Shown here piece by piece: positions 20,902-38,772 of a stretch of DNA of 40,245 nt. The first letter of the stretch is position 1, and each line of letters opens with the position of its first letter. Source of the DNA: a virus. Made by a program: the position numbers and the translations under genes. Under the pieces are notes generated by a model, which did not search any database, had not been told where the DNA came from, and was given only the letters and a program-made list of their open reading frames with translations. The stretch spans positions 1-40,245 of the IMG/VR virus record IMGVR_UViG_3300020421_000057; one strand, written 5' to 3'.

Positions 20902-20934
20902 TATTTATCTGATACCATTAAAACTAGTTTTAAT
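20902..20934 (-). promoter_or_regulatory. Composite late promoter of the gp25 operon
   Basis: The minus strand carries GATAAATA at 20902-20909, a T4-type late box, exactly 7 bp downstream of the perfect 18-bp palindrome ATTAAAACTAGTTTTAAT at 20917-20934. With T4 geometry (box at -13 to -6) the start point falls on the A of the gp25 ATG. The same box-to-palindrome arrangement occurs upstream of three other structural genes in the window. Confidence 0.85.
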
Positions 20935-20944
20935 ACACCATTTT

Positions 20945-20973
20945 TTAACACATTCCTATATCGTAGATATAAG
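20945..20973 (+). promoter_or_regulatory. Sigma70-like promoter of the hydrolase cluster
   Basis: TTAACA at 20945-20950 and TATAAG at 20968-20973 are separated by 17 bp and lie about 57 bp before the first gene of the rightward cluster. The match is reasonable but not perfect, and AT-rich DNA gives chance matches. Confidence 0.5.
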
Positions 20974-21030
20974 TAACAATGGAGACGATGTTTCGCATTG
21001 TCAGTTATGAACCTTAACAAAGGATAGCAA

Positions 21031-21312
21031 ATGAAAAACGTATTAGAACGTTTCGACAAAATTGTTGATTTAGCATATAAAGTCAACAAAAAAATCTACG
21101 ATAACAATTATGTAGAATCTAGTGGGTATGGACCTAGATTTCGTAAGATGTTGCATAAAAACGGCAACAGAATTCATTCACTGGGCATATTTGATTACCA
21201 TACTAAGAAATATGTATTATTTGAGATGGTTAATATGGTAGGGCAAAAAAATAAAGTTCCTGAAGAGTTTGACCTCATGGAGAAGTTAATAAGGAATGGC
21301 GAACCGAACTAA
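21031..21312 (+). CDS. Hypothetical protein, 93 aa
   Basis: I do not recognise this family. It is a basic, charged, apparently soluble protein (MKNVLERFDKIVDLAYKVNK at the N-terminus) with a possible beta segment around SLGIFDYHTKKYVLFEMVNM. No signal peptide or membrane span is visible. An AAAGGA ribosome site lies 7-8 nt before the ATG, and a sigma70-like promoter lies upstream. Its last 17 nt overlap the start of the hydrolase gene, so the two are translated together. It is the first gene of a three-gene rightward insert flanked on both sides by leftward baseplate genes. Confidence 0.75.
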   Translation: MKNVLERFDKIVDLAYKVNKKIYDNNYVESSGYGPRFRKMLHKNGNRIHSLGIFDYHTKKYVLFEMVNMVGQKNKVPEEFDLMEKLIRNGEPN

Positions 21313-21919
21313 TGTTGTTTTCATTCATGGAAGTGGGCAAAGTAAATTAAGTTTTAATTTTTTAGAAATTTTTCTACCTGAACACAATCTTTTAAGTTTG
21401 GAATACGATGTGCAGGAAGATCCTGAAACTATAATCAAACGTTTCAAATTTATTATTGACCAAAATTTAAACAATGAATCTTTTTCTATAGTTGCACACA
21501 GTTATGGCTGTGTGCTATCAGCACGACTACTAGACATATATGATGTAGGTCATTTTATATCGTTAAGTTCTCCTTGGGGAGGTAGTAGAACTGCTAAATG
21601 GTTAGCAATGGTTTTTAGACAAAGCACATTATTTTCAACACTTACTCCAGGAAGTGCTTTTTTGACAGCCATTGCGGATAGTAAAAGCGATATTCCGATA
21701 ACTAATATAGTAACAGCAGGAACAGGTAGCGGTAATGCACTTGCCGGATTAGGAGGTTCTCCTAATGATGGACTGCTTACAATTGAAACACAGAAAAAAG
21801 TTCCTGTTGGATTTACAAATAAAGAAAACATAACGGTTGACTTATCACATAATGAAGTGTTATTATCTATGGAAATAGTCAACATTATAAAGGAAAGAAT
21901 TTTCAATGAGCACACTTAA
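21296..21919 (+). CDS. Alpha/beta hydrolase (lipase/esterase-like)
   Basis: The 207-aa protein has a nearly complete alpha/beta-hydrolase core. The oxyanion strand is VVFIHGSG (residues 7-14). The nucleophile elbow is AHSYG with Ser69, in which Ala replaces the usual first Gly. SLSSPWGG (89-96) follows, as in lipases of the PGAP1 type. NDGLL supplies the likely acid Asp158 and LSHNEVL the likely His185, so a Ser-Asp-His triad can be read in order. No signal peptide is present, so it should act in the cytoplasm or after lysis. Substrate is unknown. It overlaps the genes on both sides (17 and 14 nt). This is not a T4 core gene and looks like an acquired accessory function. Confidence 0.85.
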   Translation: MANRTNVVFIHGSGQSKLSFNFLEIFLPEHNLLSLEYDVQEDPETIIKRFKFIIDQNLNNESFSIVAHSYGCVLSARLLDIYDVGHFISLSSPWGGSRTAKWLAMVFRQSTLFSTLTPGSAFLTAIADSKSDIPITNIVTAGTGSGNALAGLGGSPNDGLLTIETQKKVPVGFTNKENITVDLSHNEVLLSMEIVNIIKERIFNEHT

Positions 21920-22121
21920 CGAATCAGACTACATCACTTTAAACGACACTGAAGAAGAAAAACTAAGACGTATGTTAATTGAATCAAAGCAAGAAAACAA
22001 TGCGTTAAGAGACCAAATAAAATTGTTAAAACGAAATATCAAAGATGAGCAAGATGGAAAATATCGTGCTTATGTAAAAATTTCTGATTTACAAAACGAA
22101 CTTAAACAGTTAAGTCATTAA
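21906..22121 (+). CDS. Small coiled-coil protein, 71 aa
   Basis: Almost the whole protein (about residues 14-70) is a charged helix with heptad-like Leu/Ile spacing, for example EEEKLRRMLIESKQENNALR and later KISDLQNELKQL, so a dimeric coiled coil is likely. No family is recognised. The start lies inside the end of the hydrolase gene (14-nt overlap). The stop overlaps the end of the convergent spike gene by 4 nt, leaving no room for a terminator between them. Confidence 0.7.
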   Translation: MSTLNESDYITLNDTEEEKLRRMLIESKQENNALRDQIKLLKRNIKDEQDGKYRAYVKISDLQNELKQLSH

Positions 22122-24799
22122 AAACTGAATGGGTTACCGGAATTCTTAGATATACTCTGTTGATTGGAACCTGCATCATAAAATTTAACTTTCTCTGTAT
22201 CATCTAAACTTGCAACACTTACAGGCATTTTAGCATTATCATCATATGGCATGAAACTAGGTTTTGGTCTGCCATAACCTTTTGTTGCTTCATAACTATC
22301 TAACTGTATTTGTGCCGCTTTAGGTCCCCAACCTGTACCCCTACCACCGGAATGATTTGGAGTATAATTATCTGCCATACCATATAAAGTACTTTCGTAT
22401 GTTCTTCTGTTTGCTAAGTTTTGTTTATAGCCTCTCTTGTTGCTAGAATAATTCATCATTTCAATTGGAACTCGTTGATAGTCTCCGTTAAGTATTGCAC
22501 TTTTGACACTACTGCTCATCCAATTTTCTTCTCCCATACTTTCTGCAAACATCACTGTTGCCAAGTATTGGTTTTTACTCATGCCACCCTGTGCTCCACT
22601 TAAACTAAGTGCTACCCATTTAGATGTATTACCTAAAGTATTTTTTAATAAATTGGTTGCAACACCTGTTACCATTTGTGTTTTTAAGTTGTGTAAGATA
22701 TAACCAGTTCCTGTTTGATAAGAACCTTTAGATCCCATTACTCTTGACAATCCAGCATTTGCAAGATCCTGTGTTAAACCGCCTTTAACTAAACTTGAAG
22801 CATCAGAAATACTAATGCTTGTTCCAGGCAAGTTACCTCCTGCTTGTGGATTCATTATTGATCCGCCGCCAAATATAGAAACGCCTGCACTTGCTTCTTG
22901 CGGACTTAATTTGTGTCCCATGCCAACCATTTTAACACCATTGTCTAATTCTATAGGCATACTGGTATTGCTAACAGCCGCGCCAATTGTTTGTGCTCCA
23001 ATTTTGCAACTATCAGATTTAAAAAAGTCTGCACCTTGACCAGTTGCTGGAGCCATTGCTGATATTTGGTCTGAGGGTTGATAGTTTGGTACACTATTAG
23101 GACCAACTTTTATTCCTTGTGCTTTGATGTCATCGCCAGCAACACCGTCATACCCTGTACCTACTTGTAGTTGTCCATTATCGTCAGTAAAGTTTGCAGG
23201 TGCTGTGTCAGTAGGAGCAGTAGCATTGGTAGGATTATTTTCACTTGCTCTACTATCTTTTGTAACTGTTGCTGGATCATCTGCAGGTCCACCACCATGT
23301 CCTATCCAAGGTTCTAAAGTTGTTACGTTTCCTAAAATAGACACTATGTTTCCGTTTACAGGTTCAGGTCTTTCTCCGTCTGTGGGTAAAGGATTTGTGT
23401 TCTCATCTACATCATTTTCTGTGTATTCAAATTCTGGGTTCTCATTTGATACATCTATATATGTTTGTGCTTGGATTTTTTCTACTTCTTCTGCCTGTTG
23501 AGCATCTGAAGCCGAGCCACCATCATTCAAGTGAACTGTTGATCCTATTACATTGTTTCTACCACCTGCTTCACTAGTAATTTCTCCACCACTTTTTATG
23601 TGCATATTACTACTAGATGAAAGCAATATTTCTTCTTGTGCATTGGTATGTATAGACTGTTCTGCAAAGTTGAACATTTGTCCTTTTGTACTGTGATGTA
23701 TAGAGGAGCCTTGTTCTCTAGTCATTACTTTATATCTATTTACAGTTAAACTTTCTATACTGTTACCTGACTGTATTTTAATATCGCCATATGGTCCCGA
23801 TGTTCCGTCCGGGCCTTCGTTCTCTTCCATTACACCTGCACTGATATTAACTGCTGTACCACCTTCTAAATTTAAAGTTCTGTCTGCTCGTATATTAACA
23901 TCATTTTTTGCTCTTATGTTTAAATCTTTGTCACTGTAAACATGAATACTTCCTGCTTCATCTAGTTCAACCCATGCTGTACCATCTCTATTAATAATGT
24001 ATATTAAACCATTTGTGTCGTCCATTAAAATTTGATTGCCTAATGCTGTACGCAATCTTATATGACGTTGATCCATATTATCATCCATTACAAATGAATG
24101 ACCGCCTCGTCTGTTTACACCATCTACTTTACCTGAGTCTAAATTTCTATTGTCAGGTCCAGGTGTTAATATTCCAAATACTTGTGAAGGACTTTCTCTT
24201 CTCGCACTAGAAGTTGTGAGACCTCTAATTGGATCTTTGATTAATCCTTGATTTAATATTGATTCTGTGATAATGTTATTAAGTGGTCTTTTTGATTTGT
24301 TACCGTGGTCTAAATTTTCATCACGTTTGTTTTTTTCTGCAACAGGCAAGTTCATATTTGTGCCGTAAGTTGGGCCTGCGGCATTACCTGGTACCATGTA
24401 TTGCATTTGATCCGGGAACATACATCCTATAATTACTGGCATTTTCTTTTTGCCATCTGCAAAACACATCAATACAAAGTTACCTGGATCTGGTGGTACC
24501 ATCCACATACCATAAGTTTTCATTGTGTCTTGATAGTCTGCTACATTTTCTCCAATTTTTGCTGAAGGTGTTGTGCCTGCAAATGGTGAACTCCAAAAAC
24601 AATTAAAATATCCTGCTGGGTCACTTCTATCTTTACTAAGCATAGGAACATATACAGTTATACGTCCACTATGTGTTGCGTCTTTGGGTCTTACAATTAC
24701 TTCACCCATGTAAACGCCAAAATCCAGTTCTGCACTCTCACGCATTTTATCGCGTGGATTCTTTTTGCTTTTTCTAAAACTGTTTGGTTTATATGCCAT
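22118..24799 (-). CDS. 5: Baseplate hub spike, gp5-like, with lysozyme-like C-terminal region
   Basis: Residues about 26-130 form an OB-fold of the gp5/VgrG type (GVYMGEVIVRPKDATHSGRI, then VPPDPGNFVLMCFADGKKKM and PVIIGCMFP). Residues about 250-430 are short beta repeats typical of the triple-stranded beta-helix spike (HVYSDKDLNIRAKNDVNIRA). Residues about 430-580 are an acidic Pro/Thr/Asn linker. The C-terminal third resembles a GH24 lysozyme: LDNGVKMVGMGHKL near 618-631, and AILNGDYQRVPIEMM with NLANRRTYESTLY near 795-806. The catalytic Thr position is Met624, and no Glu sits at the usual distance before Asp619, so activity is doubtful. In T4 the lysozyme lies between the OB-fold and the helix, not at the end. 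TAATG overlap with the upstream hub-like gene. Confidence 0.88.
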   Translation of the reverse strand: MAYKPNSFRKSKKNPRDKMRESAELDFGVYMGEVIVRPKDATHSGRITVYVPMLSKDRSDPAGYFNCFWSSPFAGTTPSAKIGENVADYQDTMKTYGMWMVPPDPGNFVLMCFADGKKKMPVIIGCMFPDQMQYMVPGNAAGPTYGTNMNLPVAEKNKRDENLDHGNKSKRPLNNIITESILNQGLIKDPIRGLTTSSARRESPSQVFGILTPGPDNRNLDSGKVDGVNRRGGHSFVMDDNMDQRHIRLRTALGNQILMDDTNGLIYIINRDGTAWVELDEAGSIHVYSDKDLNIRAKNDVNIRADRTLNLEGGTAVNISAGVMEENEGPDGTSGPYGDIKIQSGNSIESLTVNRYKVMTREQGSSIHHSTKGQMFNFAEQSIHTNAQEEILLSSSSNMHIKSGGEITSEAGGRNNVIGSTVHLNDGGSASDAQQAEEVEKIQAQTYIDVSNENPEFEYTENDVDENTNPLPTDGERPEPVNGNIVSILGNVTTLEPWIGHGGGPADDPATVTKDSRASENNPTNATAPTDTAPANFTDDNGQLQVGTGYDGVAGDDIKAQGIKVGPNSVPNYQPSDQISAMAPATGQGADFFKSDSCKIGAQTIGAAVSNTSMPIELDNGVKMVGMGHKLSPQEASAGVSIFGGGSIMNPQAGGNLPGTSISISDASSLVKGGLTQDLANAGLSRVMGSKGSYQTGTGYILHNLKTQMVTGVATNLLKNTLGNTSKWVALSLSGAQGGMSKNQYLATVMFAESMGEENWMSSSVKSAILNGDYQRVPIEMMNYSSNKRGYKQNLANRRTYESTLYGMADNYTPNHSGGRGTGWGPKAAQIQLDSYEATKGYGRPKPSFMPYDDNAKMPVSVASLDDTEKVKFYDAGSNQQSISKNSGNPFSF

Positions 24800-27534: not shown

Positions 27535-27535
27535 A

Positions 27536-27835
27536 TTAACCCATTATACGTTGAATACTTTCACCACTAGGAAGAAAAATTGTTACGCCTGCTTTAAAAT
27601 CCTCTATAGGATCAATGAGAATATCTGGATTTCTCATAGCAAACAGCCACCACAGTCTTACTGTACCATATAATTCGTTAGCAAGTAACTCGGGTCGCCC
27701 TTCATATTGATGTTCTATTTCGTATAATTGGTCACCTCGGCTTTTAGGTACACTTGGCAACTGATTTATATCCAACACATTTCCTTTAGTTGGAGCATTT
27801 CTTAAAAAACTTTCTCTGCTGTGAAAACTAGCCAT
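27536..27835 (-). CDS. 53: Baseplate wedge protein, gp53-like, 99 aa
   Basis: The central part reads YEIEHQYEGRPELLANELYG, then RLWWLFAMRNPDILIDPIED and FKAGVTIFLPS. This is the compact LysM-like fold of phage tail protein X and of the short gp53 wedge proteins of marine T4-like phages. T4 gp53 is about twice as long. It is coupled to the tube-cap gene by a TAATG overlap and ends 1 nt before the hub-like gene. A wedge role follows from family and context, and the gp53 name is less certain than the structural role. Confidence 0.75.
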   Translation of the reverse strand: MASFHSRESFLRNAPTKGNVLDINQLPSVPKSRGDQLYEIEHQYEGRPELLANELYGTVRLWWLFAMRNPDILIDPIEDFKAGVTIFLPSGESIQRIMG

Positions 27836-28647
27836 TATATAAATCCTTTAGTGTAATCTTTACCACTTGAAAAAGCACCTAGGTCAAATGTTTTTCTAAG
27901 TTTCTTGTATGTGTACTGAGGCGCCATCTCAATCATTATATCTGTTTCTGTTGGCATGTATGTTGTTTTACCATTATAAGTTACTGGAATGTAATCTATA
28001 CCATCAGGAAGTTGCATGTTGTAACTTCTGATAATCACAGGAACTTTGTTAAAACCGTATTCACCCAAATATTCAAATATCAATACTGGAGGAGGAGTAC
28101 CAAATCTATTGTTTTGTACTGAACTGTCTCCATAAAAGCCTTTTGTCACTGTTCTTAAAAAATGAAATACTGCTAATAAGTATTGAGCCTCTTCTGTAGT
28201 GTTTGCAGTCCATTGTCCTTGTACTGGTAGTACAGGAGGTCTGCTGTTTATATATGTGTAAAACGGATAGTTTGTTCCGTGGAATGTTGCTTCGTTGTAT
28301 TCTACACTTGCTTGTAAGAAAATGTTTGGTGTGTATGGGAATACAATACCACCTCTTTCTTTTAATGGTTTTAGAATACTATTGCCAGGGTCTCCACCAT
28401 CTTTTTTACTCATGCCATAAGCAATATCTTCTCCACCTTTTTTAGGTCTGATTCTTGCTCTCCAATCCATTTTGGGAATGGTGCCGCTTGAACGTCCAGC
28501 ACTTTTAACATTACTGTTAGTCTTAGTACCACTTTGCCCATATGTATCTATAAGATTATTGGCTTTGTCTGTGGTCTTACCTTGGGCCCGAGCACTTTCA
28601 AAAGTACCTTTTTGTCCCAACTGCTGTTGTTCAAATTCTTCTGACAT
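27835..28647 (-). CDS. 48: Baseplate tail-tube cap, gp48-like
   Basis: Residues about 95-235 match gp48-like proteins of marine T4-like phages: FPYTPNIFLQASVEYNEATF, then PVLPVQGQWTANTTEEAQYL, HFLRTVTKGFYGDSS and FEYLGEYGFNKVPVIIRSYN. gp48 sits on the hub and nucleates tail-tube growth. The first 90 residues are Gln/Gly/Ser/Lys-rich and probably flexible. I start at ATG 28647 rather than the in-frame TTG at 28656: the GGAGA ribosome site at 28658-28662 is 10-11 nt from the ATG but only 1 nt from the TTG. It is the first gene of the second baseplate operon, behind a composite late promoter. Confidence 0.85.
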   Translation of the reverse strand: MSEEFEQQQLGQKGTFESARAQGKTTDKANNLIDTYGQSGTKTNSNVKSAGRSSGTIPKMDWRARIRPKKGGEDIAYGMSKKDGGDPGNSILKPLKERGGIVFPYTPNIFLQASVEYNEATFHGTNYPFYTYINSRPPVLPVQGQWTANTTEEAQYLLAVFHFLRTVTKGFYGDSSVQNNRFGTPPPVLIFEYLGEYGFNKVPVIIRSYNMQLPDGIDYIPVTYNGKTTYMPTETDIMIEMAPQYTYKKLRKTFDLGAFSSGKDYTKGFI

Positions 28648-28673
28648 TTTTATCAAATCTCCGTTTACAAGAC

Positions 28674-28706
28674 TATTTATCTGGATAAATAAAAACGTAC
28701 TTTAAT
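28674..28706 (-). promoter_or_regulatory. Composite late promoter of the gp48 operon (degenerate palindrome)
   Basis: On the minus strand GATAAATA (28674-28681) lies 7 bp downstream of ATTAAAGTACGTTTTTAT (28689-28706), which matches 13 of the 16 specified positions of the palindromic element seen at the other late promoters. The predicted start near 28668 gives a leader of about 21 nt containing the GGAGA ribosome site of the gp48-like gene. Confidence 0.7.
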
Positions 28707-28741
28707 TTTTTATTAAAGGTTACCAGAATTTTATTTTACAG

Positions 28742-28807: not shown

Positions 28808-29677
28808 ATGACACAACCTAAAAAGGTTAATTATCTTAATAATAAAGATATTCTAAAACAAATACATTTCAGCAAAATGACATACTGCTATGTGCAGGAT
28901 GACAGATATTCTGATGTGGACTTGATTGTGGAATCAGTAAAAAAGATAAACAAAACCGCAATCAAACAAGCACAAATTAATAAAGCGGCTAAACTAAGCA
29001 CTTTAGCATATCAAACAGCAGTTGCAAAAGGCGACTGGACTAAGAAACCAAAGCAGAAAGAATTTACTGTTGATCCTAAAACAATGGCAGTTGATGAATT
29101 GGTCTTTAGAGTTATGACTTATGACCACATTCCAGATGAGCCAGGTAGGAAGAAAACAACAAAAACAGTTGCAGACACAAAAGCAAAAGTAAACTTTCCG
29201 CCTTTTAAACAATACATCTTAGACAGTAATGGTATTAATCCTAGGGAAGTTGTTAGAAGTCATTGGGTAGGTGGACTACACAATGGACATTTTTCAGTTG
29301 ACCATGGAAGAATTACAAATGAACTAGGTAAGATGTTTATGAAACTTGTTGAACGTTATAGTCAAAGAGGTAACTGGAGAGGTTACACTTATGTTGATGA
29401 AATGCGTGGACAAGCATTAGTACAGTTAGCACAAATTGGATTACAATTTAATGAAGCAAAGTCGGACAATCCATTTGCTTATTATACTGCAACTGTCAAT
29501 AACAGTTTTACAAGGGTACTGAATTTGGAAAAACGTAACCAAACAATTAGAGATGATATTTTAATTGAACAAGGTCACTTACCAAGTTACGGTAGGCAAA
29601 TTAAACATGAGGAAGAATTACGTGAACTTCGAGCAAATGCAGAGAACGAAGTTGACAAAACACCAAGTGGCGAATAA
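28808..29677 (+). CDS. 55: Late-transcription sigma factor, gp55-like
   Basis: Residues about 190-265 form a sigma region-2-like helix set: RGYTYVDEMRGQALVQLAQI, then SDNPFAYYTATVNNSFTRVL and NLEKRNQTIRDDILIEQG. This is the diagnostic block of T4-type gp55, which directs host RNA polymerase to ATAAATA late promoters. T4 gp55 is about 185 aa; here there is an additional Lys-rich N-terminal part of about 100 residues (around 75-125 is especially basic). No region 4 is seen, as expected for this family. A strong ribosome site (GAGGAGA, 4 nt spacing) and a sigma70-like promoter indicate early expression by the unmodified host enzyme. It heads the operon with gp47 and gp46. Confidence 0.92.
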   Translation: MTQPKKVNYLNNKDILKQIHFSKMTYCYVQDDRYSDVDLIVESVKKINKTAIKQAQINKAAKLSTLAYQTAVAKGDWTKKPKQKEFTVDPKTMAVDELVFRVMTYDHIPDEPGRKKTTKTVADTKAKVNFPPFKQYILDSNGINPREVVRSHWVGGLHNGHFSVDHGRITNELGKMFMKLVERYSQRGNWRGYTYVDEMRGQALVQLAQIGLQFNEAKSDNPFAYYTATVNNSFTRVLNLEKRNQTIRDDILIEQGHLPSYGRQIKHEEELRELRANAENEVDKTPSGE

Positions 29678-29680
29678 TAT

Positions 29681-30697
29681 ATGGCGAACCTCTTTGAGCG
29701 AGCCGCATGTTTTACAGATATACATTACGGCTTAAAACAAAATAGTAGACAACATTTAAAAGACTGTCATGATTACGTGGAATGGTTTATAGCAGAAGCC
29801 AAGGCACGTGATTGTGAGACATGTTTCTTTTTAGGTGACTGGCATCATCATAGAGCAAGTATTAATATTGCAACTATGAATTCTACGATACGAGACTTAA
29901 AATTATTAAATGAATCTTTTGAAAAGGTTTATATGATTTTAGGTAATCACGATTTATACTACAGAGAAAAACGTGACCTTAACAGTATTGAATTTGCTAG
30001 AGACTTACCTAACATTGTTATGATAGATGACCATTTTTGTGAAGATGGTGTTGCAATTATTCCTTGGCTTGTAGGAGATGAACACAAAAACCTAAACAAG
30101 TTAGACTGCAAATATATGTTCGGACATTTTGAATTACCTTACTTTAAAATGAATGCAATGGTCGAAATGCCAGACCATGGTGGCATAACTGCACAACATT
30201 TATCAAATCCTGAATATGTGTTTAGTGGTCACTTTCACAAAAGACAATATAAAGGCAACATACATTATATAGGTAATGCTTTCCCACACAATTACGCAGA
30301 CGTGGGAGATAATGAAAGAGGTGCTATGTTTTTAACATGGGACGAAGAACCGTTATATGTTAATTGGGATAAATGCCCAAAATATGTAATGATGGGTTTG
30401 AGACAATTATTAGAAGATCCAGGCAAATATTTAGATGAATGTACACATGCTAGAATAAAACTTGATGTTGGCATTAGTTATGAAGAAGCAAACTTTATTA
30501 GAGAAACATTTGCTGAACAATATAATGTTAGAGAACTACAACTTATTCCAATTAAGGAAGAAGAAGAAATTTATGAAGGCACTGAAATTGAATTTGAAAG
30601 TGTTGACCAAATTGTTATATCTCAATTGGACACAATAGAAAGTCCAACTGTTGAAAAAGAAAAATTAATTGAAATTTATAGGAACATTGTAATATAA
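29681..30697 (+). CDS. 47: Recombination nuclease subunit gp47, Mre11-like
   Basis: A calcineurin-like metallophosphoesterase with all main metal motifs in order: DIHYG (residues 12-16), GDWHHH (about 51-56), GNHD (about 88-91), GHFE (about 148) and GHFHK (about 183-187). The length of 338 aa equals T4 gp47 (about 339 aa). With gp46 it forms the Mre11-Rad50-type complex that resects DNA ends for recombination-dependent replication and degrades host DNA. It follows gp55 by 3 nt and its TAA overlaps the ATG of a mini-ORF (TAATG), which in turn overlaps gp46. Confidence 0.95.
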   Translation: MANLFERAACFTDIHYGLKQNSRQHLKDCHDYVEWFIAEAKARDCETCFFLGDWHHHRASINIATMNSTIRDLKLLNESFEKVYMILGNHDLYYREKRDLNSIEFARDLPNIVMIDDHFCEDGVAIIPWLVGDEHKNLNKLDCKYMFGHFELPYFKMNAMVEMPDHGGITAQHLSNPEYVFSGHFHKRQYKGNIHYIGNAFPHNYADVGDNERGAMFLTWDEEPLYVNWDKCPKYVMMGLRQLLEDPGKYLDECTHARIKLDVGISYEEANFIRETFAEQYNVRELQLIPIKEEEEIYEGTEIEFESVDQIVISQLDTIESPTVEKEKLIEIYRNIVI

Positions 30698-30771
30698 TGT
30701 TTGCCTTACAAAAATTAATTGCAAAGTTAATAGAAAAATTAGTGGACTATTTAAAGAATGCTAAAGATTAA
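30697..30771 (+). CDS. Mini-ORF linking gp47 and gp46, 24 aa
   Basis: ATG 30697 overlaps the gp47 stop (TAATG) and the frame ends at TAA 30769-30771, 14 nt inside gp46. The peptide starts MFALQKLIAKLIEKLVDYLK and would be a short amphipathic, lysine-rich helix. gp46 has only a weak ribosome site, so reading this ORF would carry ribosomes to the gp46 ATG at 30758. Whether the peptide itself has a job is unknown; it may be a coupling device only. Confidence 0.5.
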   Translation: MFALQKLIAKLIEKLVDYLKNAKD

Positions 30772-32560
30772 AAATGTAACAGCAAAGAACTTTATGAGTG
30801 TTGGTAACAATACTCAAGCAGTTGGCTTTGACACAGATTCGCTTACACTTGTACTAGGTCATAATTTAGACTTAGGTGGTGATGGTAGTAGAAACGGTAC
30901 AGGTAAAACTACTATAATAAATGCATTGAGTTTTGCATTGTATGGTGAAGCACTTACAAATATTCGCAAAGACAATCTCATAAACAAAACAAACGGCAAA
31001 GGCATGATGACTACTGTTGATTTTGAAATCAATGGTACTGAATATAGAATTGAAAGAGGAAGACGCCCTAATGTTCTTAAGTTTTATATCGATGGTATAG
31101 AACCAGGGGACAATGAACAACAAGGCGACATGCGTGAAACTCAAAAAGAAATTGAAAAAATTATTGGTTTCCCACATAACATGTTTAAGCATTTGATTGC
31201 ATTAAACACATACACAGAACCTTTTTTAAGTATGAAAACAAATGACCAACGAGATATGATTGAGCAGTTGTTGGGCATAACTGAAATAAGTCAAAAGGCA
31301 GATGTACTAAAAGAACTTTTGAAAGTCACCAGGGATAATATTAAAGAAGAAGAGATACGAATCAAAGCAGTTAAGAGTGCAAATGATAGAGTAGAAAAGA
31401 ATATTGCAGAAATAGAACTTCGTGGAAAAGCATGGAGTAAAAATAAAGAAGATAAAGTAAATGAATTACAAACTAGTTTAGATGCTTTAGAAGAAACTGA
31501 TATTACTATGGAACTTGAAAACCATAGAAAAGTTACAGACATAAATCAACAGTATCAAAAAGTACAAGGCTTAGAAAGTGAATTAAGTCAGTTAAAAACA
31601 AGTAGCACTAGAAGTGAAAAAACAATATCAACATTACAGTCTAATCTTGTAAAAGCAGACGAGGGTGTTTGCCCTGCATGTGGACAAGATACTGCCCATT
31701 TAGATACACATGAAGAATACACGAAAGAACTTAAAGAAGATTTAGCAAAAGAACAAACATACTTGAATGAGATTACATTAAAAGTAGATGACTTAGAAAA
31801 ACAAATAGAAGAGTTTGGTGAATTGCCTGAAACTCCTATTACATTCTATAGCAGTATGGAAGATGCATTACAACACATGCATAATGTAACAACATTAACA
31901 GAACAAATAGAAGAAAAAGTCAAGGAAGAAAATCCGTACACAGAACAAGTTGAACAATTAAAAGATACAGGTATGGAAGATATAAATTATGATTTAATAA
32001 ATGATTTGACATACTTGAAAGAACATCAAGAGTTTTTATACAAACTATTAACTAGCAAAGACAGTTTTATTAGAAAGAAAATTATTGACCAAAACTTACA
32101 ATACTTAAATTACAGATTAAGCCATTACTTAGACAAGTTAGGATTACCACATGATGTTAAATTTAACAGTGACTTAACTGTAGACATCACAGAATATGGT
32201 AGAGACTTAGACTTTGATAATTTAAGTAGAGGTGAACGTAACAGATTAATACTTGGTATGAGTTGGGCATTTAGAGACATATATGAAAGTCTTAATCAGC
32301 CAATGAATTTAATGTGCATAGACGAACTTGTAGACAGTGGCATGGACACAACTGGTGTTGAAAATGCCCTTGCAGTTCTTAAGAAAATGGGTCGAGAATC
32401 AAATAAAAATGTTTTCCTTATTTCACATAAAGAAGAACTACAGGGTAGAGTTAATAATGTACTATATGTAGTTAAAGAAGGAGGCTTTACGTCATATTCA
32501 AATGATATCGAAATACTAGACGAGGATTCAGATGTTTATAGATTTAAAGTTAAAACATGA
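30758..32560 (+). CDS. 46: Recombination ATPase subunit gp46, Rad50-like
   Basis: An SMC/Rad50-type ATPase of 600 aa (T4 gp46 is about 560). The Walker A motif lies in GSRNGTGKTT (about residues 44-53). Long charged coiled-coil arms (about 190-300 and 315-450) flank the zinc hook CPAC (about 305-308). The ABC signature is LSRGERNRLILGMSWAF (near 487-503), Walker B is MNLMCIDELVDSG (about 516-528), and the H-loop His lies in FLISHKEEL (near 551). It partners the Mre11-like gp47 just upstream in end resection. Its stop overlaps the next start by ATGA. Confidence 0.95.
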   Translation: MLKIKNVTAKNFMSVGNNTQAVGFDTDSLTLVLGHNLDLGGDGSRNGTGKTTIINALSFALYGEALTNIRKDNLINKTNGKGMMTTVDFEINGTEYRIERGRRPNVLKFYIDGIEPGDNEQQGDMRETQKEIEKIIGFPHNMFKHLIALNTYTEPFLSMKTNDQRDMIEQLLGITEISQKADVLKELLKVTRDNIKEEEIRIKAVKSANDRVEKNIAEIELRGKAWSKNKEDKVNELQTSLDALEETDITMELENHRKVTDINQQYQKVQGLESELSQLKTSSTRSEKTISTLQSNLVKADEGVCPACGQDTAHLDTHEEYTKELKEDLAKEQTYLNEITLKVDDLEKQIEEFGELPETPITFYSSMEDALQHMHNVTTLTEQIEEKVKEENPYTEQVEQLKDTGMEDINYDLINDLTYLKEHQEFLYKLLTSKDSFIRKKIIDQNLQYLNYRLSHYLDKLGLPHDVKFNSDLTVDITEYGRDLDFDNLSRGERNRLILGMSWAFRDIYESLNQPMNLMCIDELVDSGMDTTGVENALAVLKKMGRESNKNVFLISHKEELQGRVNNVLYVVKEGGFTSYSNDIEILDEDSDVYRFKVKT

Positions 32561-33342: not shown

Positions 33343-33767
33343 AAGCAGATTGGACATATCAAGGAGAAAAGATAGATGCTATCCCGGATCAGTTTGAAGG
33401 GTTTGTTTACCTTATCACGAATACCACCAATAACAAAAAGTACGTCGGCAAAAAACTTGCAAAATTCAAAACAACAAAGCCGCCACTCAAAGGAAGAAAA
33501 AATAAAAGACGAGGTCACAAAGAAAGCGACTGGAAAACCTATTGGGGAAGTTCAGACTTACTCCAAGAAGATGTTGCAAAACTCGGAGAAGAAAAATTCA
33601 CCAGGGAAATCTTATACTTCTGTGAATCTAGAGGTGTAATGAGTTACTTAGAAGCAAAGGAACAATTTGATAGAGAAGTACTTTTAAAAGATGATTACTA
33701 CAATGGAATCATAAACTGTCGCATAGGTGGTTCACAATTATTGCGAGAGTCGTTGAAAGATAGATAA
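33339..33767 (+). CDS. SegE-like GIY-YIG endonuclease
   Basis: This 142-aa protein has a GIY-YIG-type core: GFVYLITNTTNNKKYVGKK (residues 21-39) with Y24 and Y35-V36-G37 in place of the strict GIY and YIG. It continues with WKTYWGSS (65-72), GEEKFTREIL (83-92) with a candidate catalytic Arg89, a Glu in SYLEAKEQF (102-110), and YYNGIINCRIGGS (120-132). This order is that of the SegE-type GIY-YIG domain of free-standing phage homing endonucleases. A very basic patch (50-61) would contact DNA. It overlaps the upstream gene by ATGA. The strongly structured non-coding stretch begins right after its stop. Confidence 0.8.
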   Translation: MKADWTYQGEKIDAIPDQFEGFVYLITNTTNNKKYVGKKLAKFKTTKPPLKGRKNKRRGHKESDWKTYWGSSDLLQEDVAKLGEEKFTREILYFCESRGVMSYLEAKEQFDREVLLKDDYYNGIINCRIGGSQLLRESLKDR

Positions 33768-34260
33768 CTATTTTTCGGTAACGGCAAATTTAGACACCCA
33801 GTCAAACTAACATAGGCAAACATAGGCACCACACCGCCCAACCGAGGCAAATGGAATCGGTATCCTTGAGACTCCTTGTAGGCGTCAGAACTGGATTGTG
33901 GTAGGCAAGATACAAACAACTTTATGGTATTAAAAGAATGCAGGCTCTGGGAAAAAGCAACCTGCAAGTCTAGTATAATGAACTCTTCAAATTATATTAG
34001 ACTCCCGTGAGATTCGAGACGGTAGTGTAAGGGGGCAAAATGCTCACTGGCTCCTAACAGCACCCGAGATAGAGATGGCGATTCATCACATGATGGTATT
34101 TTCAGGTTCTCCTTGCATAAGGAGAATCATGACTCAACATACATGATAGCAGTTAAAAATAATTTCCAACAAGTAATGAAGTGAATGAAATGAACGAAAA
34201 ACGCAGTTGGAAAAGGTACGAAGTACCTAAATAGTGTATAAGAATAAACACAATTCCCTT
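33768..34260 (+). ncRNA. Candidate structured RNA in a gene-free interval
   Basis: No plausible gene lies between 33768 and 34382. GC content in hand-counted lines is about 50-55% (33841-33900 and 34021-34080), against about 25% in a sampled gp46 line. Hairpins seen: ACCGA/TCGGT (33841-33845 with 33857-33861), TGCAGG/CCTGCA (33939-33944 with 33961-33966), a 13-bp stem (33967-33979 with 33991-34003, loop 11 nt), CCGT/ACGG (34005-34022), GGGCA/TGCTC (34033-34045), a 10-bp stem (34105-34114 with 34119-34128, loop GCAT), TTTCCAAC/GTTGGAAA (34163-34170 with 34206-34213) and AGGTAC/GTACCT (34214-34228). Three stems contain G-U pairs on the plus strand that would be C-A mismatches on the minus strand. 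AACATAGGCA is tandemly repeated at 33809-33828. The class is unknown; ends are approximate. Confidence 0.6.
34107..34126 (+). other. Perfect 8-bp hairpin hiding a ribosome site
   Basis: TTCTCCTT pairs with AAGGAGAA around a GCAT loop, extendable to 10 bp. The 3' arm contains AGGAG followed 4 nt later by ATG at 34129, which opens a five-codon frame (MTQHT, stop at 34146). An in-frame ATG at 34090 gives 18 codons. Translation is not shown; the hairpin may simply be part of the structured RNA. Confidence 0.45.
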
Positions 34261-34295
34261 AAGACTCTTATAAAACAATGACTTAAAATATTAAT

Positions 34296-34322
34296 TTTTT
34301 TACCATTTTTCTTGGTAAAAAA
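34296..34322. other. 9-bp inverted repeat upstream of the 34324 promoter
   Basis: TTTTTTACC (34296-34304) and GGTAAAAAA (34314-34322) form a perfect 9-bp stem with a 9-nt loop, ending 1 nt before the -35 element. No T-run follows the stem on either strand, so it is not a normal intrinsic terminator. An operator or 3'-end processing structure is possible. Confidence 0.5.
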
Positions 34323-34323
34323 C

Positions 34324-34351
34324 TTGACTTTACTCCAAAAAGACGTATAAT
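34324..34351 (+). promoter_or_regulatory. Sigma70-like promoter of the 34383-37558 cluster
   Basis: TTGACT at 34324-34329 and perfect TATAAT at 34346-34351 are 16 bp apart. It shares TTGACTTTA at the -35 side and GTATAATA at the -10 side with the gp55 promoter. The start point near 34358 gives a leader of about 25 nt with AAGGAG at 34371-34376. Confidence 0.85.
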
Positions 34352-34382
34352 AGTATGTATTGTTTAAGAAAAGGAGTAAACG

Positions 34383-34640
34383 ATGACATTGAACGAAATC
34401 AAACTTGCTATTAGAAATGGCAACTTCACAAACGAAGACCTAATTACTTTAGGTTCTTATATCCAAAATGTTAAAACTGAACAGGCTAAGGCTAGTATTT
34501 CAGTTGGTGACGAAGTTTTTGTAGTCCAAAAGACTAAAAAGACTAAAGGTATTGTTGAAAAAATCAATATCAAAAAGGCTATTGTAACACTTCCGCAAGG
34601 GCGTTACAATGTTCCATTGTCAATGCTGGAGGCTATATAA
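34383..34640 (+). CDS. Small protein with SH3/KOW-like C-terminus, 85 aa
   Basis: Residues 1-40 are helical (MTLNEIKLAIRNGNFTNEDL). Residues about 41-80 form a small beta-barrel-like segment: VGDEVFVVQKTKKTKGIVEK, then INIKKAIVTLPQGRYNVPL. That pattern, a VGD turn and a basic loop, is common in SH3- or KOW-type nucleic-acid or protein-binding folds, but I cannot assign a family. It has an excellent ribosome site (AAGGAG, 6 nt spacing) and a near-consensus sigma70-like promoter, so strong early expression is likely. Its TAA overlaps the next ATG (TAATG). Confidence 0.8.
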   Translation: MTLNEIKLAIRNGNFTNEDLITLGSYIQNVKTEQAKASISVGDEVFVVQKTKKTKGIVEKINIKKAIVTLPQGRYNVPLSMLEAI

Positions 34641-34840
34641 TGGCTGTTCATGGTGGACCTTATGACAGAGGTAGTGCTGACAGTTACTACGGCAGAGGAA
34701 AAGAACCTCACTATTATCCACACGGTACCTACAACGGTGAACGTGTAGAAGCAAACGATATGACTGCAAAAGAAATTGCAGAATATCACAAAGGCTTCGA
34801 TGATAATGAGGCTGATGGCAACTTCAAGGATTTTGGATGA
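34640..34840 (+). CDS. Small GGPYDRGSADSYYGR protein, 66 aa
   Basis: A short polar protein rich in Gly, Tyr, Asp and His. It starts MAVHGGPYDRGSADSYYGRG and continues with PHYYPHGTYNGERVEANDMT and a helix ending EYHKGFDDNEADG. The DRGSADSYYGR-PH-YP pattern looks like a short family widespread in marine phages and bacteria that faintly recalls ribosome-modulation-factor-like proteins; this is a weak resemblance and no function is claimed. TAATG overlap upstream, ATGA overlap downstream, so all three small genes are read together. Confidence 0.75.
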   Translation: MAVHGGPYDRGSADSYYGRGKEPHYYPHGTYNGERVEANDMTAKEIAEYHKGFDDNEADGNFKDFG

Positions 34841-35178
34841 TAGAAATTCTTCAAGAAACAACTGACTGGGGAAAATACAAGGTAAACAACGGAGTTTATC
34901 ATGTAAATTCCTCAGGCAAGTTAGTTGCCTTTCAGGCTAACATAGATGCTCCTATACAGGAGTTGAATGTTCCAAGCACTCAATTCAGTAAAGCAAGACG
35001 TAAGTTTAAAAAAATAGGCGAACGTCCTGACACACAAACTGAACAAAATAATAACATTAAAAAAGTAAAAGGTTCGACGGGTAAAGAATATATCATAGAC
35101 TTAGACAAAAAGACTTGCACTTGTCCTGGTTTTACTTATAGGGGAAATTGCAAACATGTCACAGAATACTGTTCGTAA
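34837..35178 (+). CDS. SWIM-type zinc-finger protein, 113 aa
   Basis: The C-terminus carries CTCPGFTYRGNCKHV: Cys94-x-Cys96-x8-Cys105-x-His107, the CxCx(n)CxH signature of SWIM zinc fingers, which bind DNA or protein partners. The SWIM strand before it (KGSTGKEYIIDLDKKTCTCP) also fits. The first 60 residues are a small domain of unknown kind (WGKYKVNNGVYHVNSSGKLV). The zinc finger ends 6 residues before the stop, so the domain is at the very end. The gene overlaps its upstream neighbour by ATGA and its last 23 nt contain the start of the large lipoprotein gene. Confidence 0.8.
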   Translation: MIEILQETTDWGKYKVNNGVYHVNSSGKLVAFQANIDAPIQELNVPSTQFSKARRKFKKIGERPDTQTEQNNNIKKVKGSTGKEYIIDLDKKTCTCPGFTYRGNCKHVTEYCS

Positions 35179-37558
35179 ACATTTTAAAAAAGTCATTGAC
35201 CTACCGTTCGTAGGTCTTGTTATATTAGCATTAACATCATGCGCCAGTGGCGGTGGTAGTTCAGGGTTAGGTGTAGTACCTACACAACAATCATATACAG
35301 CACCTTCACAAAGCAGTCAGTCAAATGACAAACGCAATAGTTTTGATACCTTTACTGCTGAATACAGTCCAACTGCAACAGGGTTTGCAGATCCAATTAC
35401 TGTGACATATAGTATGTTGGATTATACTGTAACAGGATTGCCTACTCCCACAGACAAATATTATATTGAAGATTATGGATTCTTAAATGTAAATGTTGAA
35501 GGCACACATCCTGGTTTTGCTAACGGACAAGAAACATCAGACCCAGGATCTTACAATCAATTTACTAGAGTATTAGAAGCAGACTTAAATGGTGATGAAC
35601 ATAAGGACATGTATGTTATCTCTTATATAGGAGATTGGAACACAAGAAGTTTTAATCCTGACAGTAAAATTTTTACTTTTTTAAATGATGGCACAGGACA
35701 CTTTATAATGCAAGATGATTCATTTTGTATTATGGGAACTAATTGTAATAGGAATACTGCTGTAACTACTGCACTGACTGTTGACTTAAATGGTGACGGT
35801 ATAGATGACTTTTTTGGTGGCGAAACATTACTGTTAAGTAATAATGGCAAACTAGAAGATAAAAGTTCTACCCTTCCTGCTAATGTATTTTTCAATGACG
35901 AAGTTGGCGGAGACATGGGTGCATTTGCACACGATGTTACAAATGGTGATGTTGACAATGACGGAGACCAAGATATTTTCTTTCCATTGTTTGCAAGGAA
36001 TTCAGGTACAGATTGGGGAAATGGTTACACAACAAACAACATTGAACCTTGGGTAATGTTAGTAAATGATGGCACAGGAAATTTTAGTGCAAACAGAAAC
36101 TTTCCAATTTACAATGATGAAAACTCTACTTGGGCAACCACTGCCGTTATTGCAGATTTTGACAATGATGGATTTGGTGATGTTGCAGTTGGGTGGCAGT
36201 ATGCTGGCAAATCACAAAACAATATAGCAAGTAGTCCGGAAAATAGTGCTGGTGCAGTATTTTATAATAACGGTAGTAATGACTGGCGTGATGATATAGT
36301 ACCTTTACCTGCAAACTATTATGGTGCTATAGGTGGTGCTATAGATATGGAAGCCTTTGACATAGATGGAGATGGCAATGTTGATATATTAATGGGTGTT
36401 ACGCCAACAAGCAATGATTCAAATTATTATGTTGGTAACATGATACAAGTTTTTAAAAACAATGGAAATAAAACTTGGTCTGATATAACATCTACTGCTA
36501 ATCCTAACACAAAATATGCTAACGGAAATCCTGCAAATGCTGATGTTTGGAATGGACAAATGTTTTTTACAAAAGTTGATTTTGATAAAGATGGTGATTT
36601 GGATCTCGTGTCGTCAGGCGTAAACAGTTATGTGCTATTAAACAATGACGGTGTATTTGAACTGTATGATAACTTTCCAGGATTTGAAAATGGACACTTA
36701 ACAGGATTATTTCCTATAGAAGTAGATGGCAAAGATTGGTATGATTTTGTAGGTTCAACTGTTACAACTACTGATACCACTAGTGATAATACATTCTGGT
36801 TGATGATGGATCCAGTAAATGTATTACAACAAATGGCTGACGAAATTGCAAACAAACCTAACCAATATGCTCAAACAGTTTTTGAAAACAAAAGTATTTT
36901 TAACACATTAAAAAATCAAACATTGTTTGATGACAATGTATTTTATACAGATAACAATTATGATAGTGTTTTAGGTTATAATAAAAACTTTGGAAATTAC
37001 GGATTATTATTTGGTAAAACAGAAGGCGGTGGTGTTGTATTTGTTGATACACAAATTAACAATTATCACATTGGCTTAGGTTTTATGAAAAGTGATATGT
37101 ATGTTGATAATCCAGGAAAATACTATGGTAAAGGTAATGCCAAACTAGATGTAGACACAATAAATTTATTTGCTGAAAGGTCATTTGCAATACACGATAA
37201 CTGGTTTTTACAAACAGGTTTTGCTTTTTATAGCACTACTGTAGACAGTTTTAAAGAACGAAATAGTAATTTTAATGCAGAAGTAAGTAAGTTTACAATG
37301 AACGATATTGAGTCATACACAGACTTCACAGGCAAATTTAATACCTCTAAAGGCACAACTTATGTTTCTTTAGGAGTTAGTACAATTCATAGTTTAGGCA
37401 ATAGTTCTATACATTTTAATGGTCTTAAAACTGAGTTTAGTAACAATGAAACTGTAGTAAGAGCAAGTCTAAGTCATGTTTATAATAACATTACTGCTTA
37501 TATAAAAGCAGATACTATAGATGATAACTTGCAATTTGGTATAAGTTTTAGATTATAA
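35156..37558 (+). CDS. Predicted lipoprotein with FG-GAP/VCBS repeats and barrel-like C-terminus, 800 aa
   Basis: Residues 1-29 look like a lipoprotein signal: a basic n-region, a hydrophobic core (LPFVGLVILAL) and the lipobox LTSC with Cys29, followed by a Gly/Ser stretch. Six Asp-rich calcium-loop motifs of FG-GAP/VCBS type follow: DLNGDEHKD (near 143), DLNGDGIDD (near 209), DVDNDGDQD (near 264), DFDNDGFGD (near 333), DIDGDGNVD (near 402) and DFDKDGDLD (near 475), suggesting a beta-propeller. From about residue 600 to the end, alternating amphipathic strands (GLLFGKTEGGGVVFVDTQI, then NNYHIGLGF) ending NLQFGISFRL resemble an outer-membrane autotransporter barrel. A ribosome site AGGGGA is 10 nt before the ATG. 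Such a protein would sit in the host envelope. Its role, for example surface change or superinfection exclusion, is inference. Confidence 0.85.
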   Translation: MSQNTVRKHFKKVIDLPFVGLVILALTSCASGGGSSGLGVVPTQQSYTAPSQSSQSNDKRNSFDTFTAEYSPTATGFADPITVTYSMLDYTVTGLPTPTDKYYIEDYGFLNVNVEGTHPGFANGQETSDPGSYNQFTRVLEADLNGDEHKDMYVISYIGDWNTRSFNPDSKIFTFLNDGTGHFIMQDDSFCIMGTNCNRNTAVTTALTVDLNGDGIDDFFGGETLLLSNNGKLEDKSSTLPANVFFNDEVGGDMGAFAHDVTNGDVDNDGDQDIFFPLFARNSGTDWGNGYTTNNIEPWVMLVNDGTGNFSANRNFPIYNDENSTWATTAVIADFDNDGFGDVAVGWQYAGKSQNNIASSPENSAGAVFYNNGSNDWRDDIVPLPANYYGAIGGAIDMEAFDIDGDGNVDILMGVTPTSNDSNYYVGNMIQVFKNNGNKTWSDITSTANPNTKYANGNPANADVWNGQMFFTKVDFDKDGDLDLVSSGVNSYVLLNNDGVFELYDNFPGFENGHLTGLFPIEVDGKDWYDFVGSTVTTTDTTSDNTFWLMMDPVNVLQQMADEIANKPNQYAQTVFENKSIFNTLKNQTLFDDNVFYTDNNYDSVLGYNKNFGNYGLLFGKTEGGGVVFVDTQINNYHIGLGFMKSDMYVDNPGKYYGKGNAKLDVDTINLFAERSFAIHDNWFLQTGFAFYSTTVDSFKERNSNFNAEVSKFTMNDIESYTDFTGKFNTSKGTTYVSLGVSTIHSLGNSSIHFNGLKTEFSNNETVVRASLSHVYNNITAYIKADTIDDNLQFGISFRL

Positions 37559-37783
37559 ACTTTCTGATTTATCACCGCTTTTTAGTTTGTTATAGCGGTT
37601 CACAGTCTTAATAAGAGTTTCACGTTCAATAGGAGATAGTTGCCATGCTTCTGTATAAGACACGGCACCCTCACTAAATATAGCCAACTCTGCTACTTGC
37701 TTTAGAATGCTTTTTTGGTCTTTGTCGAGTTTACCTAAGTAGCCTGCAATTTCTTCAGGCTCGGCTGACCCTAGGAACCCGTG
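37553..37783 (-). CDS. Frame -1 extension of the gp26-like gene (76 codons, no own start)
   Basis: After the slippery site the -1 frame is open from CAC 37783-37781 to TAA 37555-37553, adding 76 residues (HGFLGSAEPEEIAGYLGKL at the junction). There is no ATG anywhere in this frame, and upstream it closes with a TAA only a few codons before the slippery site. The C-terminal part, VSYTEAWQLSPIERETLIKT, resembles short helical gp51-type or tail-assembly-chaperone C-terminal pieces. The frameshifted product would be 366 aa (290 + 76). The final 3 codons overlap the end of the convergent lipoprotein gene by 6 nt in total. Confidence 0.75.
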   Translation of the reverse strand, partial: HGFLGSAEPEEIAGYLGKLDKDQKSILKQVAELAIFSEGAVSYTEAWQLSPIERETLIKTVNRYNKLKSGDKSESL

Positions 37784-38652
37784 AAAAAATTTACAGGGTC
37801 GAAGTTAATTGGTGCAATAAATTCGTTACCGCCTTCTACTGGGCATTCCTCATTTTCGCATTTAACCATCACTTCGTTTTTTACACCTTTGTCATTAATG
37901 TCGTTGACAAAAGTTTCAATTTCTTTTCCTGTAGTATTATCCGTGTTCTCTAAGAACTCTCTAATGATATGACCATCTGTAATAGTAACGTCTTTGCCTT
38001 CTTCATTTTGATAAACTATACTCTTGATACTGTCAACTAATAGTTCAAAGTTCAAGTCTGCTAATTTAACAAAACTTTCGTTGAATGCACTTAAACGTTC
38101 CATATCGTCAGTCATCTCTGAGATACTTTGCATACTTCTTGTACTTTGGAAACTGGCAACACCTGCTCTAATTGTACTAAAGTATGTAAAAGGTAATCCT
38201 TTAACAACTAGACCATTAGTCAATGTAAGTTCGTATTCCGAATCAAGTTCCTCCATGCCTTGCAATGATGCTTCAACACTGATTGTTACATCTGTGATTG
38301 TTTCACATTCTGGACATGTCGCTTGTACTTCAACGTCGTCCCCACCACTTGCACCTCTGATTGCAATTAACAATGCATCAACATCAGCACTAAACATTTT
38401 TTTAGGCTCTTTGATGTCTGGTACACATGACTTAATTAAACTTGCTACTGCTTCTCCATTTAACAATGCATCTGGATTTTTAAGCATTAGTTCGTCTTTT
38501 GTAGTCATTGGGAAAATAGCCAATTCGCCATTATCTGGAACAGTCATTATACCTTCTTTATAAAACCTACCGCCACTAGGAATAGTGGTGTATAGTTTAG
38601 GTGCTCTAAAGTAAGCACTTAACGGATTTTGACTTTGTATGTTCTCTGCCAT
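37771..38652 (-). CDS. 26: Baseplate hub / tail assembly protein, gp26-like
   Basis: The 293-aa product matches the T4 gp26-type baseplate assembly family of marine phages. Features are YTTIPSGGRFYKEG near the N-terminus, FPMTTKDELMLKNPDALLNG (47-66), IKSCVPDI (73-80), and a zinc-ribbon-like pair CPEC (113-116) with C-ENEE-C (265, 270). T4 gp26 is about 208 aa and lacks the ribbon insert as far as I recall. Start ATG 38652 has AGGAGA 5 nt upstream and a composite late promoter. It ends VNFFTGS-stop, and the FF codons form the slippery site for the -1 extension. Likely role: assembly chaperone or hub component for the tail, next to the tape-measure-like gene. Confidence 0.85.
   Translation of the reverse strand: MAENIQSQNPLSAYFRAPKLYTTIPSGGRFYKEGIMTVPDNGELAIFPMTTKDELMLKNPDALLNGEAVASLIKSCVPDIKEPKKMFSADVDALLIAIRGASGGDDVEVQATCPECETITDVTISVEASLQGMEELDSEYELTLTNGLVVKGLPFTYFSTIRAGVASFQSTRSMQSISEMTDDMERLSAFNESFVKLADLNFELLVDSIKSIVYQNEEGKDVTITDGHIIREFLENTDNTTGKEIETFVNDINDKGVKNEVMVKCENEECPVEGGNEFIAPINFDPVNFFTGS
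37783..37789 (-). promoter_or_regulatory. -1 ribosomal frameshift site U UUU UUC
   Basis: In the gp26-like frame the codons are AAT TTT TTC ACG. The last T of AAT plus TTT TTC is the canonical X XXY YYZ heptamer T TTT TTC, three codons before the stop TAG at 37773-37771. An A AAT TTT heptamer overlaps it upstream. A perfect 6-bp hairpin AGCCTG/CAGGCT (37741-37761) lies about 21 nt downstream, farther than usual for a stimulator. Confidence 0.75.
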
Positions 38653-38688
38653 TTAATCTCCTGATTATAATAGTATGAATTAAAACTG

Positions 38689-38721
38689 TATTTATTTATC
38701 ATATTTAAAACTAGTTTTAAT
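38689..38721 (-). promoter_or_regulatory. Composite late promoter of the gp26-like gene
   Basis: On the minus strand AATAAATA (38689-38696) lies exactly 7 bp downstream of ATTAAAACTAGTTTTAAA (38704-38721), whose inner 16 bp are a perfect palindrome. An overlapping GATAAATA (38693-38700) is a second possible box, with a 3-bp gap. The start near 38683 gives a leader of about 31 nt with AGGAGA before the ATG. Confidence 0.8.
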
Positions 38722-38739
38722 TTTTTGTGTAAAAAACCT

Positions 38740-38772
38740 ATTAAAACGTGTTTTAATAGTTTCTGATAAATA
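38740..38772 (+). promoter_or_regulatory. Composite late promoter of the tape-measure-like gene
   Basis: ATTAAAACGTGTTTTAAT (38740-38757; arms extend to 10 bp on each side of a GT centre) is followed after 7 bp by GATAAATA (38765-38772). The 19 bases GATAAATATTGGTATGGCA are identical to those at the gp25 start. The predicted start point is the A of the ATG at 38778. Confidence 0.85.

Follow-up and report, generated by a model that had tools for sequence, protein, structure and literature searches.

According to the accessible text of the review PMC2988020, T4 late promoters have no upstream or -35 element, the box precedes the start by roughly one helical turn, and gp33 does not read DNA. MotA boxes are centred at -30 and stand 12 +/- 1 bp from the -10 element, as given in the available part of PMC2988021. 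For the jumbo phages CBB and GAP32, the accessible part of PMC5259590 presents ATAAATA as a predicted late motif before structural genes, and the CBB authors report that no gp33 was found. Here, we describe a palindrome standing at a set distance upstream of such late boxes in the virus record IMGVR_UViG_3300020421_000057, a stretch of 40,245 bases (hereafter the window) that is apparently a fragment, since open reading frames (ORFs) run off both ends. Judged by its sequence, its source is a T4-like phage; relatives of gp55, gp47, and gp46 lie at 28808-32560, with baseplate and virion genes on the opposite strand. A preliminary description of the window had reported the palindrome and had presented T4 late promoters as lacking a -35 element, a point on which the review agrees.

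The element consists of ATTAAAACNNGTTTTAAT, then 7 bp, then NATAAATA, and is found at 20917, 38704 (one mismatch), and 38740, with a three-mismatch copy at 28689. Its core is written TTAAAACNNGTTTTAA below, and gaps are counted from the last A of this core to ATAAATA; the 7 bp of the preliminary description correspond to a gap of 9. Upstream of the gp25 unit, on the minus strand, the palindrome ATTAAAACTAGTTTTAAT (20917..20934) is followed at 7 bp by the late box GATAAATA (20902..20909), which ends 5 nt 5' of the gp25 ATG. The degenerate palindrome (28689..28706, minus strand) lies upstream of a virion-protein operon opposite gp55, with its late box 7 bp away (28674..28681, minus strand). The hub gene is preceded, also on the minus strand, by TTTAAAACTAGTTTTAAT (38704..38721, one mismatch in 16 specified bases) and by a double late box, GATAAATAAATA (38689..38699, core 38699-38689), with gaps of 5 and 9: one box, at 38696-38689, keeps the 7 bp and an overlapping one, at 38699-38693, sits 4 bp nearer. 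On the plus strand, ATTAAAACGTGTTTTAAT (38740..38757) and a second GATAAATA (38765..38772), again 7 bp apart, precede a long gene beginning MAVSFNIEGQ, the box lying 5 nt 5' of its ATG. Direct reading and pattern search thus confirmed the palindrome, the exact 7 bp, and the box at all four units of the preliminary description, including its 13/16 match at 28689 (three mismatches). Two local arrangements can be added. The hub and long-gene promoters are divergent, with their two palindromes about 36 bp apart. At 28674-28691, between the virion operon and gp55, two opposed late boxes stand 4 bp apart; one of them, an ATAAATA on the plus strand (28685..28691), overlaps the proximal end of the degenerate palindrome and points towards gp55, whose ATG follows 116 nt on, and TATTTAT is present there in several relatives.

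The exact core occurs three times in the window, each time with ATAAATA at gap 9, and was absent, with or without a box, from 400 dinucleotide shuffles of the window. When up to three mismatches are permitted, eight window sites stand against a shuffle mean of 1.72, and one shuffle in 100 reached eight; the copy at 28689 alone would therefore be unconvincing, and it is the relatives that back it. ATAAATA is itself scarcer in the window than expected by chance (seven found vs 21.6 expected), and the four palindrome units account for five of these seven boxes. No palindrome accompanies the remaining two, at 28685 and 33311 (both plus strand), whose best matches carry five and seven mismatches, respectively.

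Like T4 late promoters, the locus combines an ATAAATA-type box with a gp55 relative next to the genes for gp47 and gp46. It differs from them in the palindrome near -30 at a subset of promoters, and in that no gp33 scores above the cut-off in G001, a 339,794-bp relative (L237-L253). The likeness to the MotA middle promoter, as far as the available text describes it, lies in a phage-specific element centred at about -30, with about 1 bp of spacing tolerance, that replaces the -35 element. Whereas the MotA box is asymmetric, (a/t)(a/t)(a/t)TGCTTtA, and is paired with a sigma-70 -10 element, the present site is palindromic and accompanies a gp55 box. The CBB/GAP32 motif is likewise the late box of related jumbo phages, but the GAP32 record contains no TTAAAACNNGTTTTAA at zero or one mismatch, and a palindrome is not mentioned in the accessible part of PMC5259590. 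No description of such an element was found in the open-access literature, with subscription papers and preprints outside the scope of the search; the accessible texts included PMC5780444, PMC5587285, PMC7029224, PMC3037559, PMC13282480, PMC2984593, and PMC9004378.

The element recurs in related phages, where its conservation and spacing can be read directly. Scanning IMG/VR with the palindrome, 8 N, and ATAAATA returned 16 stretches, and permitting gaps of 0-30 returned at least 118. Among the oriented matches in the loci of this second scan, 106 of 147 fall at gap 8 (51) or gap 9 (55); after removal of duplicates, these gaps account for 58 of 82 (28 and 30, respectively). In a control scan, the reversed palindrome was met in 24 stretches; here the gaps scatter between 7 and 28, and no class exceeds seven (gap 13). 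Since loci fetched by the palindrome are biased, two bias-reducing tests were made, one on sites with exactly two mismatches and one on loci fetched by gp55. Among 250 oriented sites with exactly two mismatches, a box stands no more than 30 bp away from 41, and the gaps are 5 (three), 8 (25), and 9 (13) only. For one-mismatch sites, 16 of 26 have a box, at gaps of 5 (three), 8 (six), 9 (four), 11 (one), and 13 (two). The gp55-fetched set was drawn from the closest 80 of at least 599 loci, two of which were too short; the other 78 yielded 48 distinct promoters opposite gp55. Every one of the 48 has a box, and in every one the best palindrome match over gaps of 0-30 lies at 8 or 9, with no mismatch in nine, one in eight, two in 16, three in 11, and four in four. 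Further copies and non-random spacing, to which the preliminary description had tied its proposal, are therefore present in the relatives; its call for a scan of palindrome, spacer, and box met with enrichment at gaps 8 and 9, confined to a recurring subset of late units.

The gp25 promoters tell the same story. A set of 57 distinct promoters, mostly palindrome-fetched and required to have ATAAATA 5-6 nt before the ATG, all have their best match at gap 8 or 9 (no mismatch in 43, one in one, two in nine, four in three, five in one). The palindrome arms are near-invariant, and the spacer and flanks vary. The four weakest cases belong to a group (L129-L143) with 42% identity in the wedge protein, where ATTAAA and GTTAAT are kept at gap 8. 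The gap differs by 1 bp between groups, being 9 in some relatives and 8 in others. In nine relatives searched as whole records (G001-G009), all 24 close palindromes have ATAAATA 2-11 nt downstream, at gaps of 9 (16), 8 (one), 5 (five), 11 (one), and 2 (one), although several of these records are near-identical and the 24 palindromes are not independent cases. Of 13 distinct gap-5 sequences, eight also have ATAAATA or ATAAGTA at gap 9 and five do not. A looser pattern, derived from the outer half-sites, matched 28 times in nine of ten records and its reverse never; one or two of the 28 are chance-like. Pairs at gap 13 (23 oriented, nine distinct) mostly represent the opposite face of these palindromes, next to a sigma-70-like promoter directed at gp55, and are taken as secondary. 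The exact element has no match in GTDB contigs, and querying phage records with a promoter yielded nothing beyond partial matches, which came from 17 records.

Boxes flanking the palindrome on its opposite side were considered and set aside: 52 of 70 such pairs belong to a gp22-like gene, and the other 18 are about as many as in the reversed control (24). The gp22-like case is a separate observation: 52 of the 70 stretches (L353-L422, e.g. L357:10698) have an identical 16-mer 13-17 nt past ATAAATA and ahead of the start of a gp22-like prohead core gene. This group is pelagimyophage-like, and its nearest isolate, Pelagibacter phage Mosig, lacks the 16-mer.

The distribution of the palindrome is narrower than that of the gp55 type. 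The window gp55 matched 525 phage records, 56 of them with at least 80% coverage; these are jumbo phages, such as PA5oct, BF, GAP32, RaK2, 121Q, Atu_ph07, and Phosso, with 39.7-47.3% identity. IMG/VR holds closer gp55 relatives, up to 98% identical. Virion genes opposite gp55-gp47-gp46 are common to several jumbo isolates, less so in Phosso, Atu_ph07, and SCTP-2, and the gene opposite gp55 has ATAAATA in seven of nine jumbo isolates, Phosso and Atu_ph07 being those without. The palindrome was searched for over the full length of 20 records with up to one mismatch. All nine IMG/VR relatives carry it, five of them reached via gp55 and four via palindrome matches. Among ten jumbo isolates it was found in RaK2 only, with one mismatch and no ATAAATA nearby; this match is background, since the reversed control matches four of the ten. 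S-CAM22 and HTVC008M have no palindrome at this threshold, and T4 and Pelagibacter phage Mosig each have two one-mismatch sites, none near ATAAATA.

Within the phages that carry it, the palindrome is confined to the same few units. The preliminary description had placed it at every late promoter, which does not hold: two of the seven window boxes are without it, and of 76 late-like boxes in G001 (ATAAATA with an ORF start within 80 nt) about six carry it, some 70 having no specific upstream element. A match with up to three mismatches at any gap accompanies seven of the 76; six of these are at genes bearing the site elsewhere, and one, at gap 19, is chance-like. Most window boxes have the site because the window covers a cluster of carriers. 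Over the window and eight relatives, with up to four mismatches, 157 distinct boxes give 24 matches at gap 9, five at gap 8, and three at gap 5, each other gap having zero to four. The corresponding count at gaps 5, 8, or 9 in PA5oct, 121Q, and Vibrio phage 2.275 is 0/140. Late promoters without the palindrome, 122 from relatives and 139 from isolates, show no symmetry excess at any spacing. The recurrent carriers are gp25, the phrog_12050 gene opposite gp55, the phrog_150 hub gene, and the long MAVSFNIEGQ gene, to which a phrog_11259 gene of about 205 aa and a small MSRPKP gene (no PHROG), the latter with irregular spacing, can be added. Several non-homologous genes thus have the same upstream site. 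Family matches mark only gp25 and the hub as baseplate genes, and the label 'tail/baseplate regulon' is a summary rather than proof. A separate feature of these late genes is that some look leaderless, with the ATG exactly 5 nt past ATAAATA at two window units (20896-20908, 38766-38780). In G001, the ATG stands at 5 nt for 16 boxes and at 6 nt for six, in palindrome and non-palindrome units alike; boxes with an ATG at 5 nt number two in PA5oct and none in 121Q or Vibrio phage 2.275.

The palindrome is very probably a protein-binding promoter element. With the exact box-to-start offset known for T4 late promoters as a guide, the T4 geometry and the ATG 5 nt past the box at gp25 and the long gene would put the start on the ATG itself, with the palindrome spanning about -37 to -22. 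In the mechanism that we favour, a putative dimeric, sequence-specific protein of one group of jumbo T4-like phages would sit on the palindrome, with its centre some 29-30 bp upstream of the presumed start, in place of a -35 element or a MotA box. There, it would most likely touch the late RNA polymerase and boost initiation, so that a small set of units rich in tail and baseplate genes would be expressed as one regulon. Protein binding, dimeric state, and activation are all three things that we infer. The fixed spacing favours a polymerase-touching protein over a simple blocker, and if the palindrome does bind a protein, an activator or co-initiator is somewhat the better supposition than a repressor. 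The whole proposal, a dimeric-protein site forming the second element of a gp55-dependent late promoter subclass and raising these units, has in our judgement an even chance of being right. The preliminary description had also suggested a dimeric factor acting with gp55; the symmetry, the conserved spacing, and the phage's own gp55 fit this, and its extension to every promoter does not stand.

The main rival is a repressor operator, at which a dimer would block the late polymerase at these units, either early or as feedback on an excess of tail parts. A palindrome at about -37 to -22 occupies a place that the polymerase requires, and the two palindromes that lie some 36 bp apart where the hub and long-gene promoters diverge would suit joint control, but a spacing that varies by no more than 1 bp at the main units across many genomes exceeds what a blocker needs, and we regard this alternative as possible though rather doubtful. 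Several observations nevertheless weigh against an activator contacting the polymerase. At the MSRPKP gene, the palindromes have gaps of 2, 10, 11, and 12, which fits a repressor, to which irregular spacing is no hindrance, or chance better; gap 5 is common at the hub, and the gap-9 near-box is missing in five of the 13 gap-5 sequences; some units retain only degenerate copies with three to five mismatches; and the scan counts overstate independence, as most loci were palindrome-fetched and many genomes are near-identical. No binder was found in partial screens of the 55-260 aa ORFs of G001, and a diverged gp33 could evade the PF16805 model.

It is also conceivable that the late holoenzyme reads the palindrome itself, using either the additional domain of its long gp55 or some other subunit bound to the polymerase, with no separate regulator. 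The T4-type family match is confined to residues 166-278 of the 289-aa gp55, leaving about 165 residues ahead of this core, a layout common to jumbo isolates. Residues 31-160 are predicted to be partly folded (block means of 65-89 in predicted local distance difference test score, pLDDT), and the model, with a whole-model mean pLDDT of 58.4, had no PDB match by Foldseek at E <= 0.001. However, jumbo isolates with the same long gp55 type have no palindrome, which makes the extra domain an unlikely reader; most late boxes of G001 are without the site, and a lone sigma subunit would not be expected to require two-fold symmetry. This explanation is very improbable. Still less probable is that the palindrome, an AT-rich inverted repeat, acts as an RNA hairpin, a terminator, or a replication or recombination signal. 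The pelagimyophage-like group does have its 16-mer downstream of the box, in the gp22 5' untranslated region, but here the distance and orientation to late boxes are fixed, and a hairpin would have an A/U-rich stem and a very short loop. Chance or functionless inheritance can draw on the frequency of AT-rich palindromes in AT-rich phages and on the co-inheritance of copies, but near-invariant arms beside a variable spacer, a site shared by non-homologous genes, and its absence from the shuffles leave it the least credible of all.

The search for a separate binder screened 193 of 292 G001 ORFs of 55-260 aa against Pfam and PHROGs, the rest being dropped by eye as likely spurious or enzymes; a simple caller gave 447 ORFs in G001 in all. 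Each scan listed 25 families, out of 36 and 42 for Pfam and 43 and 128 for PHROG, so that matches may be hidden. Four candidates were considered, none of which is claimed as binder. An AbrB/MazE-like protein occurs in G001 only among 20 records, nine of the others being fragments, the window included. An AbrB-looking 79-aa ORF has relatives in four other loci and is absent from the window. For a winged-helix-looking protein, 80 of 87 confirmed IMG/VR relatives were listed, and they extend far outside the group. Finally, phrog_1994 matched in G001 only, in a frame with stops. For the known factors, no gp33 (PF16805) scored above the cut-off in G001, the fragments G003-G005, or six jumbo isolates, with T4 and S-CAM22 positive and Vibrio phage 2.275 giving a weak match (E 0.014). 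The absence of an above-cut-off match suggests that another factor may find the upstream face of the polymerase unoccupied. No MotA C-domain (PF09158) was found in G001, G003-G005, or six jumbo isolates, with T4 positive. The gp45 clamp model (PF02916) matched T4 only and missed S-CAM22 too, and is thus uninformative.

As for the genes of the four units, the gp25-like baseplate wedge gene (20525..20896, minus strand, 123 aa) matches phrog_261 and phrog_43. The gene at 27835..28656 (minus strand) was called gp48 in the preliminary description, a name that was not confirmed; it is a virion structural gene matching phrog_12050, of the head and packaging category, and its operon holds baseplate wedge and tail-lysozyme matches. 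The late sigma factor gp55 (28808..29677, plus strand) matches phrog_12791 and phrog_234, and the baseplate hub gene (37771..38652, minus strand) phrog_150. The long MAVSFNIEGQ gene (38778..40245, plus strand), open at the window end and called tape-measure-like in the preliminary description, matches no family, and a 1363-aa relative is without any PHROG match. Elsewhere in the window, an open frame spanning 5,357 codons or more (2-16072, minus strand) exits the window end and adjoins baseplate wedge genes. No ORF reaches 60 codons in a region of about 600 bp (33768-34382) that follows a gene with matches to GIY-YIG-type and homing-endonuclease families; no tRNA or Rfam match was found in the window, this region included. 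A small SWIM zinc-finger protein (34837-35178, plus strand) lies directly 5' of an 800-aa FG-GAP repeat protein (35156-37558, plus strand), and both seemingly have relatives elsewhere in the phage group. Pfam matches of host-like metabolism in G001 include alternative oxidase, cytochrome c, SufE, glutaredoxin, and ferritin.

In the textbook view, a T4 late promoter consists of a single short box and lacks any upstream element. We tentatively propose that these uncultivated jumbo phages may have split late transcription, with a non-MotA dimeric activator at -30 and a gp33-less gp55 polymerase setting apart a tail/baseplate regulon, a reading that falls somewhat short of an even chance. If true, this would give a T4-type late promoter a sequence-specific element upstream of its box and would parallel MotA in the late phase. 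With the carrier units listed and the spacing defined, the idea can be tested directly. A conserved second element would mean that late genes can be sub-programmed, here apparently for tail and baseplate parts, and also that the polymerase face on which sigma region 4 or gp33 normally sits can be used by a different factor.

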